Shown one piece after another: positions 7,429 through 14,661 of a DNA stretch of 36,011 nucleotides. The stretch comes from Candidatus Nitrosopumilus sp. (lineage in GTDB: Archaea > Thermoproteota > Nitrososphaeria > Nitrososphaerales > Nitrosopumilaceae). The stretch covers positions 1-36,011 of the forward strand of contig VMDM01000028.1 in assembly GCA_008080815.1 (NCBI GenBank), read 5' to 3'. Positions within the stretch are counted from its first letter, which is position 1; every line of letters begins with the position of its first letter. The notes beneath the pieces were generated by a model that did not search any database, had not been told where the DNA came from, and saw only the letters and a list, made by a program, of their open reading frames with translations. The translations under genes and the position numbers were made by a program.

Positions 7429-7590
7429 ATGTCAGTAGAAATTACATGTGGAAAATGTGGTGAAAAGATTACTACCATGAAGATGCTAAAGTCATTAAAA
7501 GATGTAATGAGTTCTTATGGTGGAAAATGTCCGTCATGTGGACAGAAATTATCAACATCAGAGTTTTCAATGGATATAGAAGAAAAATAG
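7429..7590 (+). CDS. Tiny zinc-ribbon protein, 53 residues
   Basis: The ATG at 7429 opens a 53-codon frame ending TAG at 7588-7590. The product has two knuckles, C-G-K-C-G at residues 7-11 and C-P-S-C-G at 34-38, separated by a short lysine/methionine-rich helix, so it should bind one zinc ion. It ends in an acidic tail. I do not know the partner. It stands alone between the thiolase operon and the HTH/ATP-cone gene, with AT-rich promoter-like DNA upstream. Confidence 0.75.
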   Translation: MSVEITCGKCGEKITTMKMLKSLKDVMSSYGGKCPSCGQKLSTSEFSMDIEEK

Positions 7591-7657: not shown

Positions 7658-7672
7658 TTAACATAATGTTAA
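7658..7672. promoter_or_regulatory. Perfect palindrome TTAACAT-A-ATGTTAA overlapping the core promoter of the HTH/ATP-cone gene
   Basis: Seven-bp arms around one central base. It overlaps the likely TATA element TTAATTAA (7669-7676), which ends 22 nt before the ATG at 7698. A homodimeric repressor bound here would block promoter access, so autoregulation by the downstream HTH protein is a reasonable guess. Confidence 0.55.
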
Positions 7673-7697: not shown

Positions 7698-9902
7698 ATG
7701 AAAAGTAAAGATAAAGAATTAGAATTAGATGTTGATCCAAATTTAGATGATGATTTTGATGCAGATTTAGATGATGATGTTGATGATGATATAGATGCAG
7801 ATTTAGATGATGATTTTGATTCAGATGATGAATCACCAAAACGTGGTGGAATTTTACAATCTACATCAAAACGTGTAAGAATGATCTTTTCTGTGATGGC
7901 AAGTCCTAACAGAATCGATATATTGAGAATTCTCAACTCCAAAGGTCCATTAACATATTCTGAGCTAAAATCACTAGCGGGTTTCAAATCTAAAAAAGAA
8001 AGTGGTAAATTTGCATATCACTTGAGAAAATTACTAAGACAATCTCTTGTTGCATTAAACAAATCTGAAAGAAGATACACAATTACAAATCTTGGAAAAT
8101 TAGTCCTTAGTTTAGCTAGACAAATTGAAGAACGCTCCATTATTGAGAGTGGAAAAATGTATGTTCGTACTACCCATGAATCTATTGAAGAGTTCAATTC
8201 ACACAAAATCATTCAATCTCTTGTGCGTGAAGGCAGCATGCCTCTGGAATTGGCACAAAAAATTACTGAAGAGGTTGAAAATAGAATTTACAAATATCAA
8301 ACTACCTATCTCACAGGCTCATTAATTCGAGAATTAGTAAATTCTGTATTACTTGAACATGGTCACGAAGAATATCGAAACAAACTTGCAAGATTGGGAT
8401 TGCCTGTGTTTGATGTTAATGATATGCTAACAAACTTAGATAGTGTTGATAACGGAGCTGAAGGATTATTATTCAAAACAGGACAACAAGTTTTCGCTGA
8501 ACATCTTTTAACAAATGTTTTACCAAAAGATGTTGCAGATTCTCATCTATCTGGAGATATTCATTTAACAAATCCTGGAGTTTGGTCAATGATTCCAGAT
8601 ACAATATTTGTGAACATCAAAGAATTATTAGAAGATGGAGTTGATCTTGGTGGAAAATACTTGGATGTTTCAAGAATTGCATCATCAAAACAAATTGAAG
8701 AGATTAGCAGCTCACTTTCAATTGTAATCTCATTACTTTCTAAAGAAGCATCACAAGAAATTGTAATTGATGGATTAACATCATTGTTTTCAAAATATTC
8801 AAAGTCAACTGAAGAGCTGGAAGCAAATATTTTATCTGCATTTGCAAATGCATCAACTACTTCAAAGTTTAACAAATCTGGAACTGTTGTATCAATTAGA
8901 CTACAATTAGGTACTGATACAAAAATTGTCAACTCCATAATTAACGCATACAAAAATTATGTCAAAATTACTCCTATACCAAAAATTGGATTAATCATTG
9001 ATCATGACAAAGGTAAAGTCTCTGATGTTTCAGGTGTAGTTTCAGAAATTATTTCTAATGGTGGAAATGTAATGTTTGCAAAAGGTCAGACATCCAGCTC
9101 TGGTGTCACTAATTCTACAACAAAGAATTCTGGTCCATTGTCCATTCTATTAGAATCAGTTTCAATCAACTTGCCAAGATTAGCATTTGAATCAAACAAA
9201 GATGAAACTTACTTTAGAGCTAGATTGGCATTACTGATGAAACCAGCTTTGGCTTCCATGTCATTGAGAAAGAAAGACATTTCAGATCTTACACGTCGTG
9301 GTCTTAATCCTATTTTGGCCAAAAATACTCAATACATGCAGAGAAGTCCTGTTTCTCTCGTTATCAATCTAGTAGGACTCAAGGAGGCTGTTTTCAACAT
9401 CTTGGGCTTCCAAGATGATAAAGAAGGCAGAGAAATTCTTCACAAAGTCGTAGAAACCGCAGTCGATGTAGGCGTCAAAAAAGGAAAGGAACTAGGCGAC
9501 CCTGTGGCCATTTCCATGACTGAAAATCCAAGTTCATCACGATTTGCAGTATTAGATGGCGAAAAATATGGTAAAAATTCTTCATTAAACTCCATGGAAG
9601 GTGATTCTTACTCTGAAGGTGTTGTAATTGATTCAACAGATGTATCTGAACTATCAGCAAAGAGTGATGTCGTCTCTGAATCCAATAAACTATCAAAATT
9701 ACTCAATGGAGGACTGCTAGTCAAAGTCAACATTGCTCATAATTCTAAATCGACGGAAATCAAACAGACTATTGAAAAAATGTCAGAATTGACATCATCA
9801 TTCAAACCTGTTATGAAAATCGCAATTTGTGGTGAATGTGGATTTAAAGATGAACCCTTTGAAGACAAGTGTCCTAAATGTAAGTCCCCTTACATTGTCT
9901 GA
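7698..9902 (+). CDS. HTH + ATP-cone + cysteine-free NrdD-like protein, probable nucleotide-sensing regulator
   Basis: A 734-residue multidomain protein. Residues 1-45 are an Asp-rich tail. About 60-140 form a winged-helix domain of ArsR type (M-A-S-P-N-R-I-D-I-L-R-I-L-N, then Y-H-L-R-K-L). About 155-240 form an ATP-cone, the allosteric dNTP/ATP module of ribonucleotide reductases. The rest resembles anaerobic reductase NrdD (V-W-S-M-I-P-D, S-L-V-I-N-L-V-G-L-K-E-A, S-R-F-A-V-L-D-G-E-K-Y-G). The only cysteines are C711, C714, C725 and C728, a terminal zinc site, and the protein ends six residues later, before where a glycyl-radical motif would follow. Catalysis is therefore excluded. With NrdJ next door, it is probably a regulator that reads nucleotide levels; that role is inferred. 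Confidence 0.8.
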   Translation: MKSKDKELELDVDPNLDDDFDADLDDDVDDDIDADLDDDFDSDDESPKRGGILQSTSKRVRMIFSVMASPNRIDILRILNSKGPLTYSELKSLAGFKSKKESGKFAYHLRKLLRQSLVALNKSERRYTITNLGKLVLSLARQIEERSIIESGKMYVRTTHESIEEFNSHKIIQSLVREGSMPLELAQKITEEVENRIYKYQTTYLTGSLIRELVNSVLLEHGHEEYRNKLARLGLPVFDVNDMLTNLDSVDNGAEGLLFKTGQQVFAEHLLTNVLPKDVADSHLSGDIHLTNPGVWSMIPDTIFVNIKELLEDGVDLGGKYLDVSRIASSKQIEEISSSLSIVISLLSKEASQEIVIDGLTSLFSKYSKSTEELEANILSAFANASTTSKFNKSGTVVSIRLQLGTDTKIVNSIINAYKNYVKITPIPKIGLIIDHDKGKVSDVSGVVSEIISNGGNVMFAKGQTSSSGVTNSTTKNSGPLSILLESVSINLPRLAFESNKDETYFRARLALLMKPALASMSLRKKDISDLTRRGLNPILAKNTQYMQRSPVSLVINLVGLKEAVFNILGFQDDKEGREILHKVVETAVDVGVKKGKELGDPVAISMTENPSSSRFAVLDGEKYGKNSSLNSMEGDSYSEGVVIDSTDVSELSAKSDVVSESNKLSKLLNGGLLVKVNIAHNSKSTEIKQTIEKMSELTSSFKPVMKIAICGECGFKDEPFEDKCPKCKSPYIV
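7741..7829 (+). repeat. Low-complexity GAT-rich repeat encoding an Asp-rich tail
   Basis: The 20-mer beginning ATTTAGATGATG at 7741 recurs at 7801 (60-nt period), and GATGCAGATTTAGATGATGA recurs with a 36-nt shift. The repeat encodes alternating D-L-D-D-D and D-A-D units. It may vary in length between strains. Confidence 0.75.
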
Positions 9903-9988
9903 AAATCATAATCTCTCTTTTCTAATCTAGTAACAATTTCAATCAAACACGATCATCGTCACTCTCCTATCAATAATTTCGGAGCGGT

Positions 9989-10018
9989 GTCAAAAAAATT
10001 GACTCAATCTCTTGTCAA
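9989..10018. promoter_or_regulatory. Alternating GTCAA/TTGAC elements upstream of nrdJ
   Basis: GTCAA at 9989-9993, TTGAC at 9999-10003 and GTCAA at 10014-10018 give two overlapping inverted repeats in the 181-nt gap before nrdJ. A TATA-like TTATAA lies downstream at 10044-10049. They could be operator half-sites, but arms of five bases are short and may be chance. Confidence 0.3.
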
Positions 10019-10083
10019 GATCAAAATTTTTGAAGCACACAAGTTATAACCTCTAGATTTCTAACTCTGGCGGGGAAGTTATT

Positions 10084-12735
10084 ATGGACAATTCACAAAT
10101 AGAAAATACTATCGATCAGATCAAAAAGAGAAGTGGAACTGTTACCTCTTTTAATCAAGATAAAATTTCAAATGCCATTTTCAAGGCATTAGCAGCCGCC
10201 TCTAAAGCCGACCGCGGTTTAGCAGAACAACTATCTGAAAAAGTTGTTAATAAATTGGTTGAACAAGGATTCACAAAAACACGTTCACCAACTGTTGAAG
10301 ATATTCAAGATATTGTAGAGTCAACTTTGATTGATTCTGGAAATAGCGATATTGCCAAAGCATACATCGTCTATAGACACGAGAGAAGAAAACTTAGAGA
10401 AGAAAAGATGAAGGTCTTAAACCTCAAGGCTTTGGATCCAGTCTCTAAAAAATTCGATCTTAACTGCCTTAGAGTATTGGCATCAAGATATCTATTTAGA
10501 AATTCAAAGAATGAAATCATAGAGTCACCAACACAAATGTTTGAGCGTGTTGCAATTCTTGTAGGAATTGGTGATATTCTCTATGATGCACAAATCTTTG
10601 ACAAGTCTGGTTCACATTCTCAAGATGTAGAAGAAGCCAAATCTTATCTTGACAAGTTAGATGCCTTTGATTACAAATTCAAGATTGGTGATTACTATCT
10701 AAACAAATGGCACTTTAGATCCATGATTAATCACTATGTTACGCTCGCAAGTGCGGGAAAAATGAAGATCAGCTTCAAAGATCTACTGACTCTTCTTGCA
10801 GCCAAAAAATTAGATGATTACGAACAAAAAATCACTGAATACTTTGAACTAATGGTTGCTCAGGACTTTTTGCCAAACTCACCAACTATGATGAATGCAG
10901 GTGGACGACTAGGTCAGTTATCTGCATGCTTTGTTTTGGGAATGGAAGATGGCATGGAACAAATCATGAAATCAACATCTGATGCAGCATTAATCTTCAA
11001 ATCTGGTGGAGGAGTTGGAATCAACTATTCTGATTTAAGAGAAGAAGGTGACATTGTAGCATCAACATCTGGTGTTGCATCTGGTCCTGTATCATTCATG
11101 AACATCATCAACACAGTTACTGAAGTTGTAAAACAAGGAGGTAAGAGACGTGGTGCAAACATGGGAATCATTGAAGCATGGCATCCTGATGTAGAAAAAT
11201 TCATCACAAATAAAACAGAACCAGGAGTTCTTGAGAACTTTAACGTAAGTGTTGGAATCTGGGAAGACTTTTGGAACGCACTTGTAAATACAACTGATGG
11301 AAACTATGTTCTACGTAGTCCACGTGACAAAAAACCAGTTAAAGAAATCAATGCACATCAACTCATTGATTTAATTGCATTATCAGCATGGAAGAGTGCA
11401 GAACCTGGTTTGATCTTTTTTGATCAAATTAACAAGTACAACGTATTTGCAAAAGCAAGACAAGCTCCACTTAGAGCAACAAACCCATGTGGTGAACAAA
11501 GTCTTTACCCATACGAGTCATGCAACCTTGGTTCAATCAATCTTGTGAATCTTGTAAAGAGACAAGCTGATGGAACCTATGAATTTGATTGGCAAAGATA
11601 TGAAGAGACAATCAGAAAGACAACTAGATTCTTGGATAACATCATTGATGTAAACCACTATCCAGTTGCTGAAATCAATGTAGCCTCTAAAGAATCAAGA
11701 AGAATTGGTCTTGGAGTAATGGGCGTGGCAGATCTCTTGTATAAATTGAGAATCCCATACAATTCCCAAGAAGGATTTGAACTCCAATCAAAACTCTCTG
11801 AAGCACTAACATACTATTCAATGGAAGAAAGCGTAGCTCTTGCAAAATCAAGAGGTGAATTCCCATTATGCGCAAAAACAGAGTATCCAGAAGGAAAAAT
11901 TCCAGTAGCAGGATATTATGAGAGACCAAAAGAATCTCATTCCTATGAATGGGATGCACTAGTTGAAAAAATCAAACAAAATGGAATTAGAAATGTTTTG
12001 ACAACTACTGTTGCACCAACTGGAACACTATCTATGATTGCAGATTGTTCTAACGGAATGGAACCTGCATTTGCACTAGTGTTTGAGAAGAGAGTCACTG
12101 TCGGTAGATTCTTTTACACAAACAAAATTGTCGAACAAGCTCTAAAAGACAATGGTCTTTACAACGATGAAATTCTTGAAAAGATTGCAGACAACTATGG
12201 TTCCTTGAAAGGAATTCCTGAGATTCCTCAATGGATGCAAGATGTCTTTGTTACTGCAATGGATATCCATTGGGCTGATCATTTGATGGCACAAGGTGTC
12301 TGGCAAGACTGGATTGGTAATGCTATTGCAAAAACAATCAACATGCCATATGATGTAACTGCAGAAGATGTAAAGTCTGCATATTTGTTGGCACACGAGA
12401 TAGGCTTGAAAGGAATCACAGTTTATCGTGATGGTTCAAGACACACTCAAGTATTGCATATGACAAGTGATAAAGCATCAAAGAACTTTGATGTAACTCC
12501 TAGCCCATATGTTACTGAATTTGTTACCACACAAATTACAAACCCATACATCAAATCTCAAGTAAATGCAGCCCTTGCTCTAAAGGTCCATGACGAAGAG
12601 ATTGTTACAGCACCTACAACACATGAAGAGGTTTCAGAAGACCGCTTGTGTCCTACATGCAAGAATAATCTTGTCTTTGTAGAAGGTTGTAGTATCTGTA
12701 TTGAATGTGGATTCAGTGGATGCACTTCAGGATAA
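10084..12735 (+). CDS. nrdJ: Adenosylcobalamin-dependent (class II) ribonucleotide reductase
   Basis: An 883-residue reductase that makes deoxyribonucleotides from ribonucleotides using a B12-derived radical. An ATP-cone lies at about residues 15-105. C282 in L-S-A-C-F and C480 in Y-E-S-C-N-L-G-S form the likely redox pair, and C469 with E471 in N-P-C-G-E-Q are the thiyl-radical cysteine and base. The P-T-G-T-L-S-M-I motif of the family follows near residue 650. The C-terminus has C-P-T-C and C-x2-C-x2-C-G cysteines that deliver electrons or bind zinc. B12 dependence fits ammonia-oxidising archaea, which make cobalamin. Its own promoter lies in the 181-nt gap. Confidence 0.95.
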   Translation: MDNSQIENTIDQIKKRSGTVTSFNQDKISNAIFKALAAASKADRGLAEQLSEKVVNKLVEQGFTKTRSPTVEDIQDIVESTLIDSGNSDIAKAYIVYRHERRKLREEKMKVLNLKALDPVSKKFDLNCLRVLASRYLFRNSKNEIIESPTQMFERVAILVGIGDILYDAQIFDKSGSHSQDVEEAKSYLDKLDAFDYKFKIGDYYLNKWHFRSMINHYVTLASAGKMKISFKDLLTLLAAKKLDDYEQKITEYFELMVAQDFLPNSPTMMNAGGRLGQLSACFVLGMEDGMEQIMKSTSDAALIFKSGGGVGINYSDLREEGDIVASTSGVASGPVSFMNIINTVTEVVKQGGKRRGANMGIIEAWHPDVEKFITNKTEPGVLENFNVSVGIWEDFWNALVNTTDGNYVLRSPRDKKPVKEINAHQLIDLIALSAWKSAEPGLIFFDQINKYNVFAKARQAPLRATNPCGEQSLYPYESCNLGSINLVNLVKRQADGTYEFDWQRYEETIRKTTRFLDNIIDVNHYPVAEINVASKESRRIGLGVMGVADLLYKLRIPYNSQEGFELQSKLSEALTYYSMEESVALAKSRGEFPLCAKTEYPEGKIPVAGYYERPKESHSYEWDALVEKIKQNGIRNVLTTTVAPTGTLSMIADCSNGMEPAFALVFEKRVTVGRFFYTNKIVEQALKDNGLYNDEILEKIADNYGSLKGIPEIPQWMQDVFVTAMDIHWADHLMAQGVWQDWIGNAIAKTINMPYDVTAEDVKSAYLLAHEIGLKGITVYRDGSRHTQVLHMTSDKASKNFDVTPSPYVTEFVTTQITNPYIKSQVNAALALKVHDEEIVTAPTTHEEVSEDRLCPTCKNNLVFVEGCSICIECGFSGCTSG

Positions 12736-12776: not shown

Positions 12777-13898
12777 ATGGCTAAAACTATTGTAGGCATT
12801 GGTATTGGTGTAGCAGTAGTTATTGCCATCATTGCAGTAACGTTATCATCTGGTTCAGAACTTGGTACAGAAAAAAGTTCTTTTAATCAGAATCAGAAGA
12901 TTGGTCTCGTAATAAATTCACCATATCAATCTACGACACTACAACAACTGGATCAAATTTTTCAAACTGCCTCCTCAAGTGGAATTGGTAGAAGTAATGT
13001 CTATCTATTTTGGAATACAATTGAACCTGAAAAAAATGAATTTGATTGGTCTTATTCTGATCCAATTATGAGTTTCAATAAAAAAAATAATCTCAAAGTC
13101 ACTTTGTATTTTTCTGTGATTAATGGAGAAACTCTCGGTCCATTTCCGTATTGGATTGGAAAACCACCAATTCAGTCACTTGACTCAGATAGAGTTGTAA
13201 TTGTAATTGATGAAATTTTATCTAGATATGATATTGTAGACACTGTAATCTTTTCAGGTGAAACAGAATCTCAATTCAGATATAATGAACAAAATATTCC
13301 TCCCTATGCAGAACTCTTTAACACAGTATATGATCAAATAAAACAAAAACATCCTGATGTAAAAATTGGAAACTCTTTTGGATTACATCATGTCTTAAAC
13401 AAGAACTTGGAGCATATTGTTGACCAATTAAGTTTGGGTGATTTTGTTGCATTTTCATATTTTCCAGTTGATTCAGTTAATGAAATTGTAAAAACACCTC
13501 AACAAGCACATGAAGATTTACTTTTATCCATTGATTTGGCCAAAAACAAACCTGTTGGCTTTTTTGAAGTAAGTTGGAGTACATCTGATTTTGTGGGTGG
13601 TAATGAGGAAAATCAATCCGAATTCATCGATAAATCATTTGAGATTATTTCTGAAAATTCCTCACAGATTGAATTTTTCACATGGTACAGATTGTATGAT
13701 AAACCTGATGAATCTTGTATGCTAAAGATTCAAGAAGACGCAGATTCTTCGATTCCTACATTGGGATTAGGTGCAAGTAGTGAATTTGTTGTTGAACGAT
13801 TGGGTCATTATCTGTGTGAATCAGGACTCATCACAGAAAACAATCAAAGTAAAAGTGGCTGGGAAGAATTTACAAATCAAATCAAAATGATACAATAA
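12777..13898 (+). CDS. Membrane-anchored TIM-barrel glycoside-hydrolase-like protein
   Basis: 373 residues starting at ATG 12777. Residues 3-24 form one hydrophobic helix (signal anchor or cleaved signal), so the body faces outside. The body reads like a (beta/alpha)8 glycoside hydrolase: Y-L-F-W-N-T-I-E-P-E-K-N-E-F-D-W is the usual strand-2 phrase. Acidic residues at strand ends, E162 in F-S-G-E-T-E and E264 in F-F-E-V-S-W, could be the acid/base and nucleophile. I cannot name a GH family. The stop overlaps the nep1 start by 1 nt, so the two are translationally coupled despite unrelated jobs. A T-rich promoter lies between 12741 and 12776. Confidence 0.7.
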   Translation: MAKTIVGIGIGVAVVIAIIAVTLSSGSELGTEKSSFNQNQKIGLVINSPYQSTTLQQLDQIFQTASSSGIGRSNVYLFWNTIEPEKNEFDWSYSDPIMSFNKKNNLKVTLYFSVINGETLGPFPYWIGKPPIQSLDSDRVVIVIDEILSRYDIVDTVIFSGETESQFRYNEQNIPPYAELFNTVYDQIKQKHPDVKIGNSFGLHHVLNKNLEHIVDQLSLGDFVAFSYFPVDSVNEIVKTPQQAHEDLLLSIDLAKNKPVGFFEVSWSTSDFVGGNEENQSEFIDKSFEIISENSSQIEFFTWYRLYDKPDESCMLKIQEDADSSIPTLGLGASSEFVVERLGHYLCESGLITENNQSKSGWEEFTNQIKMIQ

Positions 13899-14566
13899 TG
13901 TTCTCATTAATTTTAGCTGAATCTTCATTGGAATTAGTTCCTCAAGAATTGAAAAATCATCCATCTGTAATCTCTCATGCAAGAAAATTAGGCAAGGTTC
14001 CATCAAAAATTCTGCTAGATAATTCATGGCATTTTGCTGCAATGAAAGGAATCACTAATGAACTCAAAAGAGGAAGACCTGATTTAGTTCATTTTTCAAT
14101 TTTAGAATCTACAACTATTCCATTATTTTTAAAAAATAAGATGAATCTTTATGTTCACACAATCGATGATAAAGTGATTAGATTTTCAAATGATGTGCAT
14201 ATTCCAAAATCATATCATCGATTTCAAGGACTGATTGAAAAGTTATTTCAAGAAAAAAAGATCACATCAAACAATAATGAATTACTTTCAATTAAAGAAC
14301 AATCTTTTTCAGAATTATTGAATTCAATTAATCCCTCTCAAACAATAGGTCTCTCAACTGTTGGTATGTCCACGTCTTATGAGAAACTTGCATCAGAAAT
14401 TGACCAAGATACATGTGTAGTAGTAGGTGGATTTCAGAAAAGCCATTTTTCAGAATCCATCACAAAGAGTTTCTCAAAAATTTATTCAGTTGGAAATGAG
14501 TCATTTGAAGGTCATACAGTAGTTTCAAGGATACTCTACGAATATGAAAAAACCATTTTTATGTAG
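13898..14566 (+). CDS. nep1: Ribosome biogenesis SPOUT methyltransferase Nep1 (Emg1)
   Basis: 222 residues with the features of Nep1, which N1-methylates a pseudouridine in the small-subunit rRNA (position 914 in archaeal numbering) using SAM. The G-R-P-D-L-V-H motif near residue 59 is the RNA-binding/dimer signature. The SPOUT knot near the C-terminus contains C-V-V-V-G-G-F-Q-K-S-H-F, with S-V-G-N-E following. The ATG at 13898 overlaps the previous stop. The gene stands just upstream of tRNA-Gly and other translation genes. Confidence 0.93.
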   Translation: MFSLILAESSLELVPQELKNHPSVISHARKLGKVPSKILLDNSWHFAAMKGITNELKRGRPDLVHFSILESTTIPLFLKNKMNLYVHTIDDKVIRFSNDVHIPKSYHRFQGLIEKLFQEKKITSNNNELLSIKEQSFSELLNSINPSQTIGLSTVGMSTSYEKLASEIDQDTCVVVGGFQKSHFSESITKSFSKIYSVGNESFEGHTVVSRILYEYEKTIFM

Positions 14567-14587: not shown

Positions 14588-14661
14588 GCAGTCATAGTAT
14601 AGCCTGGTTAGTATCTGGGGTTTCCAACCCTATGACGCGGGTTCGAATCCCGCTGACTGCA
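14588..14661 (+). tRNA. tRNA-Gly, anticodon UCC
   Basis: A 74-nt cloverleaf. Acceptor stem GCAGTCA (14588-14594) pairs with TGACTGC (14654-14660), discriminator A14661. The D-arm is GTAT/GTAT using G-U pairs. The anticodon stem TGGGG/CCCTA encloses TTTCCAA, giving anticodon TCC, which reads GGA and other glycine codons. A 4-nt variable loop and the T-arm GCGGG-TTCGAAT-CCCGC follow. No intron is present and CCA is not encoded. A T-rich TATA-like element across the nep1 stop codon, about 25 nt upstream, is a likely promoter. Confidence 0.95.

Follow-up and report, generated by a model that had tools for sequence, protein, structure and literature searches.

NrdR (TIGR00244), the bacterial repressor of ribonucleotide reductase (RNR), is a protein of ~150 aa in which an N-terminal zinc ribbon that binds DNA is joined to an ATP-cone, and it is found beside RNR genes. 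It binds DNA in its form loaded with both dATP and ATP (PMC9110341) and has been described as rare among archaea (PMC12176259). In active class III RNR (NrdD; PF13597, TIGR02487) the cones are paired by dATP and driven about 40 Å apart by ATP (PMC12662201), and an Asn-x-Asn (NxN) flap closes over the substrate (PMC11226230, PMC12662201).

The DNA analysed here, in the following called the window, comprises 36,011 nt from Candidatus Nitrosopumilus sp. (VMDM01000028.1, positions 1 to 36,011 forward) and belongs to an assembly (GCA_008080815.1) of 1.07 Mb in 52 contigs which is 87% complete; its closest relatives are 80–85% identical. At 7698–9902 on the plus strand it encodes a protein of 734 aa which consists of a winged helix, an ATP-cone, a dead NrdD body and a zinc ribbon, and which we refer to as the dead-NrdD protein. 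We suggest, with a probability of roughly 0.68, that this protein, as an analogue of NrdR, regulates RNR transcription by sensing nucleotides and that it evolved from class III RNR. The open-access papers searched contain no description of this protein family.

Domain organization and loss of catalysis

The reading frames of the dead-NrdD gene and of nrdJ lie where a preceding sequence-only reading had placed them, and the fusion of winged helix, ATP-cone and NrdD-like domain which it had described was recovered in full by Pfam searches above the cut-off. The winged helix–turn–helix (residues 60–146, 7875–8135) is matched by DUF7347/HTH_20 (PF24038, PF12840) at residues 63–137 and contains the predicted recognition helix ESGKFAYHLRKLL (residues 101–113, 7998–8036). 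It is followed by the ATP-cone (PF03477, E 1.1e-8, residues 154–226, 8157–8375) and by the NRDD family (PF13597, E 4.4e-25), whose best stretch covers residues 485–730 and whose second stretch covers residues ~252–371, corresponding to a C-terminal (9150–9887) and an N-terminal part (8451–8810) of the NrdD fold. The Asp-rich N-terminal tail (residues 1–51, 7698–7850) had been counted as part of the same architecture; its length turned out to be very variable among homologues, it is missing in many of them, its mean pairwise identity is 0.46, and it lies outside the core. Profile searches of the assembly, 87% complete as stated, returned the dead-NrdD protein as the sole NRDD protein and only two ATP-cones, namely its own and the canonical cone of NrdJ (10117–10389, plus strand).

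A structural match of the body to NrdD had been named beforehand as one of the points on which the earlier reading should stand or fall, and this match was obtained. A structure search with an AF2 model returned 32 PDB entries at E ≤ 0.001, which are without exception class III RNR; the next match (E 0.008) is an unrelated protein. The model was built on a shallow alignment of 49 close homologues (pLDDT 51, pTM 0.44) and reaches TM-scores of only 0.3–0.4 with the NrdD structures, so that it backs the NrdD fold but not its details; the sequence profiles support this fold independently of the model.

That radical catalysis is impossible, as had been claimed, is borne out by an alignment of 39 distant dead homologues with 34 active NrdDs. 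The first catalytic Cys is replaced in 39/39 dead homologues, in the window copy by Thr302 (8601–8603), and the second Cys pair, the radical position, is likewise replaced in 39/39 (Gly469-Val470 in the window copy, 9102–9107), the Gly itself being kept throughout, whereas the active NrdDs retain the catalytic cysteines and the radical Gly. In the thaumarchaeal copies the radical Gly is absent as the chain ends after the zinc site. The dead copies of other lineages have a degraded glycyl-radical loop in which the Gly is replaced; a few distant rows of this alignment show a Gly at or next to the radical position, where, however, the RxxGY context is lacking. The NxN flap was not found in the dead copies inspected but is present in the active neighbours. 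In the window copy the zinc-ribbon cysteines C711, C714, C725 and C728 (9828–9881) are indeed the only cysteines and the chain stops at residue 734, six residues past the last of them and with no glycyl-radical loop; many relatives have one or two additional, non-conserved cysteines. Retained in the dead family are the zinc cysteines, the invariant N491, P493 and R494 of the NLPR-motif, and the core of the cone.

In a 1.23-Mb genome (G108, locus L127, 5821–7914) the homologue breaks off ahead of the zinc ribbon, and no trace of a CxxC is found downstream in any frame; here the zinc site has been lost naturally. In a 2.05-Mb genome (G305, locus L128, 5002–7127) the reading frame of the homologue is broken near residue 490 into two frames that overlap, for which a frameshift, a sequencing error or a pseudogene are possible causes.

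Distribution, phylogeny and conservation

A sampling of 398 genomes from the whole phylum revealed homologues of identical layout in 265 of them, and among the relatives of the window the protein was found in 140/150, or in 93/94 when near-complete genomes are considered. The cysteine-less proteins, whose phylogeny had been proposed as a check, form one clan apart from the active NrdDs: a single branch splits the two groups in a tree of 103 rows (SH-aLRT 100) and in a more careful tree of 46 rows (100/100), where it occurs in 100% of the bootstraps. The tree is unrooted and therefore supports the clan but not the direction of change; the sole plausible direction is that catalysis was lost. Repeated recent origin of dead copies from a local NrdD is ruled out by the single branch. 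No relatives of the dead-NrdD protein were detected among the viral contigs searched; the phage matches (21–24% identity) are ordinary NrdDs.

The mean column identity of the dead-NrdD protein is 83%. Within Nitrosopumilaceae its mean pairwise identity, taken column by column, reaches 0.993 for the winged helix, 0.959 for the cone and about 0.80 for the NrdD body, compared with 0.894 for the catalytic region of NrdJ and 0.83 for its cone. Thus, the winged helix is the best-conserved part of the protein, with 99% versus 89% for the catalytic region of the neighbouring reductase. In addition, the GKFAYHL motif of the predicted recognition helix is kept with small changes between proteins of 26–29% overall identity. 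This conservation of winged helix and motif would be the pattern expected of a DNA-binding regulator.

Association with ribonucleotide reductase genes

As the sequence-only reading had stated, the dead-NrdD gene precedes a B12-dependent reductase: nrdJ, at 10084–12735 on the same strand, encodes an adenosylcobalamin-dependent class II RNR of 883 aa. In 130/130 thaumarchaeal loci with enough sequence, a set which contains near-duplicates, nrdJ likewise follows the dead-NrdD gene directly and on the same strand; four further loci are cut off by the edge of the contig or locus. In one genome the nrdJ frame has 1266 aa instead of the usual ~890 (G061:C6:7386-9980), which suggests an intein or an insertion in the class II RNR.

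Outside the thaumarchaea nrdD or nrdJ lies directly downstream of the dead-NrdD gene in several families. The downstream reductases are mutually non-orthologous and comprise three kinds of nrdD and three kinds of nrdJ. One order-mate (L121) has another class II enzyme as its downstream RNR, in which a TSCPD domain but no ATP-cone was detected. Other families have an nrdD of one of the three types or an nrdJ (L141) as the next RNR, and even within one clade the type of nrdD has been swapped (L206 versus L137, L153 and L204). As the downstream enzymes are non-orthologous, the association tracks function and not one particular enzyme.

Profile searches detected class II RNR in 61/61 genomes of the window's family, usually as a single match. 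The activase NrdG was above the cut-off in 0/61 of them with only weak matches far below, under a strict model whose cut-off is exceeded by only 3 controls. Thus, the dead-NrdD protein serves no anaerobic RNR in this family.

In most non-thaumarchaeal loci without an RNR nearby pyrB or pyrI adjoins or closely follows the dead-NrdD gene, pyrB being convergent. Since the gene order regulator-nrdD-pyrB-pyrI occurs in several families, this adjacency would be what remains of such a locus once nrdD has disappeared. In locus L151 (5814–8661) a dCTP deaminase, another gene of the dNTP pool, lies 77 bp downstream of the dead-NrdD gene on the same strand. In six loci (L137, L142, L153, L204, L207 and L208) a glutaredoxin-like gene is located between the dead-NrdD gene and the active nrdD, and its product is a possible reductant for that NrdD type.

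The nrdJ promoter

The nrdJ upstream region (9903–10083) is strongly conserved across Nitrosopumilaceae and much better than the upstream region of the dead-NrdD gene. It contains the conserved TATA-like box TTATAA (10044–10049) and, ~50 bp upstream of it, the inverted repeat TGTCAA-N5-TTGAC (9988–10003), which we regard as the candidate operator. In the window this is a perfect GTCAA-N5-TTGAC whose only other copy in the genome lies within a coding frame. The general form TGTNAA-N5-TTGA is found in 35/41 nrdJ upstream regions, where about 0.4 would be expected from shuffled sequences, and in nearly every case at −84 to −97 from the nrdJ start codon; as the motif was read from the very alignment used for counting and orthologous promoters share descent, these numbers show conservation and not binding. 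Of the two promoter elements named in the earlier reading, the one at 9989–10018 thus stands in the part covered by 9988–10003, whereas the palindrome at 7658–7672 is not conserved. A further element, CGATCATCG (9950–9958), is conserved in nrdJ promoters and occurs once in the whole 1.07-Mb genome, and TATGAA-N-TTCATA is present in the nrdJ promoters of most relatives but decayed in the window.

An operator shared by nrdJ and the dead-NrdD gene itself can be dismissed, as TGTNAA-N5-TTGA occurs in none of the 102 upstream regions of the latter; autoregulation is therefore unsupported. In other thaumarchaeal families the candidate operators are unrecognisable. A riboswitch in the intergenic region was also considered and rejected: Rfam gives no match there, its only match in the window being a tRNA.

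Proposed function of the dead-NrdD protein

As in NrdR, an ATP-cone and a DNA-binding-type module are combined in one protein beside RNR genes, and the dead-NrdD protein likely reads ATP/dATP as NrdR does. Yet the architecture differs: the dead-NrdD protein uses a winged helix and a dead NrdD, NrdR has no RNR body, and the zinc ribbon of the dead-NrdD protein is C-terminal and of the NrdD type and not N-terminal. The protein does not match the NrdR model TIGR00244, nor does any other protein of its own genome. A profile search of all 398 genomes gave NrdR above the cut-off in 36, all but one of family f6, where it lies beside one nrdD type, and in none of the thaumarchaea. As it has neither the zinc ribbon of NrdR nor a match to the model, the dead-NrdD protein is to be seen as an analogue and not as a member of NrdR. 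With class III NrdD it shares the whole-length fold, the position of the ATP-cone and the C-terminal zinc site, but the catalytic Cys, the radical Gly and the NxN flap are missing, a winged helix has been added at the N-terminus and it falls into a separate clan. Taken together, the protein is neither NrdR nor an active NrdD.

The same logic is known from the ROK-family repressors (NagC, Mlc), in which a winged helix is fused to a dead metabolic enzyme that has retained ligand sensing; these are bacterial proteins with a sugar-kinase body and other ligands. Archaeal ArsR-like winged-helix regulators (DUF7347, HTH_20) match the N-terminal domain but have neither the RNR body nor the cone.

The combination of a dead body, DNA-binding and ATP-cone modules and recurrent pairing with non-orthologous RNR genes makes an NrdR-like role the best reading, and the dead-NrdD protein probably works like NrdR. 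The earlier proposal of an NrdR-like regulator is thus supported in part, namely in these features. As to the mechanism, the body probably retains the RNR dimer and perhaps the nucleotide pocket, and the cone would distinguish ATP from dATP. The winged helix, which is fused ahead of the cone, would bind to an inverted repeat in the promoter of the RNR gene, in the window the candidate operator at 9988–10003. A movement of the cones like that in class III RNR would bring two winged helices together or apart, so that DNA binding would be switched on or off according to the dNTP level. For the sign of control our guess is repression at high dATP; the location of the operator relative to the TATA box would suit an activator as well.

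Several findings count against this regulator reading. One is that the candidate operators are absent upstream of the dead-NrdD gene itself and unrecognisable in other thaumarchaeal families. Another is the cone, which lacks the Lys-Arg pair that contacts the nucleotide phosphates in StNrdD, has VRTS at this position and is missing the K-R-D-G hairpin motif; the VRTS-type cone is also found in active archaeal NrdDs, so the dead-NrdD protein may still bind nucleotides. A third is that many non-thaumarchaeal copies adjoin pyrB/pyrI and not an RNR gene. This adjacency, together with the copy abutting dCTP deaminase, could mean that the protein regulates pyrimidine and deoxynucleotide metabolism more widely and has the carbamoyl transferase genes pyrB/pyrI among its main targets. 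We consider this quite improbable because pyrB is convergent and not co-directional, because the order regulator-nrdD-pyrB-pyrI suggests that the adjacency is a leftover of nrdD loss and because the thaumarchaeal neighbour is nrdJ. It is unlikely, too, that the protein is an allosteric partner of the reductase, that is, a pseudo-subunit which binds NrdJ or NrdD and tunes its activity with the winged helix as a protein–protein module. Winged helices can bind proteins, the gene adjoins RNR genes, the RNR fold is kept and the RNR of L121 has no detected cone of its own, all of which would fit; but the partners belong to two RNR classes and are non-orthologous, which is hard to reconcile with one specific interface, the recognition-helix motif is kept between otherwise distant proteins, and in one family the RNR is located elsewhere in the genome, beside its own NrdR.

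Much less can be said for the idea that the old RNR pocket now carries out a different reaction, such as the hydrolysis of nucleotides. The invariance of the NLPR-motif residues and of the zinc site would agree with such an activity, but the catalytic elements of the RNR mechanism are all gone, conservation is lower in the body than in the DNA-binding part and the zinc site is missing from one member of the family, which leaves only a very slight chance for this explanation. A decaying RNR relic kept by chance beside nrdJ is hardly credible: the lost catalytic residues and the split gene in G305 are what decay would produce, but this idea is largely refuted by the conservation (93/94 near-complete relatives, 83% column identity, 99% in the winged helix).

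On the level of the phylum we put forward, tentatively and at slightly less than even odds, that a family of RNR-derived pseudoenzymes senses dNTPs and controls transcription: in an ancestral archaeal lineage a copy of NrdD would have lost catalysis, gained a winged helix and come to control the downstream RNR, be it class II or III, with the NrdD dimer and the cone movement reused as a switch that pairs the DNA-binding domains. The dead-NrdD protein is a concrete candidate for a regulator of dNTP levels in thaumarchaea, which are very abundant among marine archaea. In it a metabolic enzyme would have turned into a regulator of its own replacement, and the ATP-cone would have been reused for transcription control a second time, independently of NrdR.

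Genes flanking the locus

Upstream of the dead-NrdD gene, at about 7432–7590 of the window, there is a small zinc-ribbon ORF (CxxC...CxxC) whose end is conserved in relatives. Directly after nrdJ a protein of 373 aa is encoded (12777–13898) which has a hydrophobic stretch at its N-terminus and matches nothing in Pfam, and a similar gene also follows nrdJ in L127. It is succeeded by a gene for an EMG1/NEP1 rRNA methyltransferase (13898–14566) and then by a tRNA gene (14588–14661).
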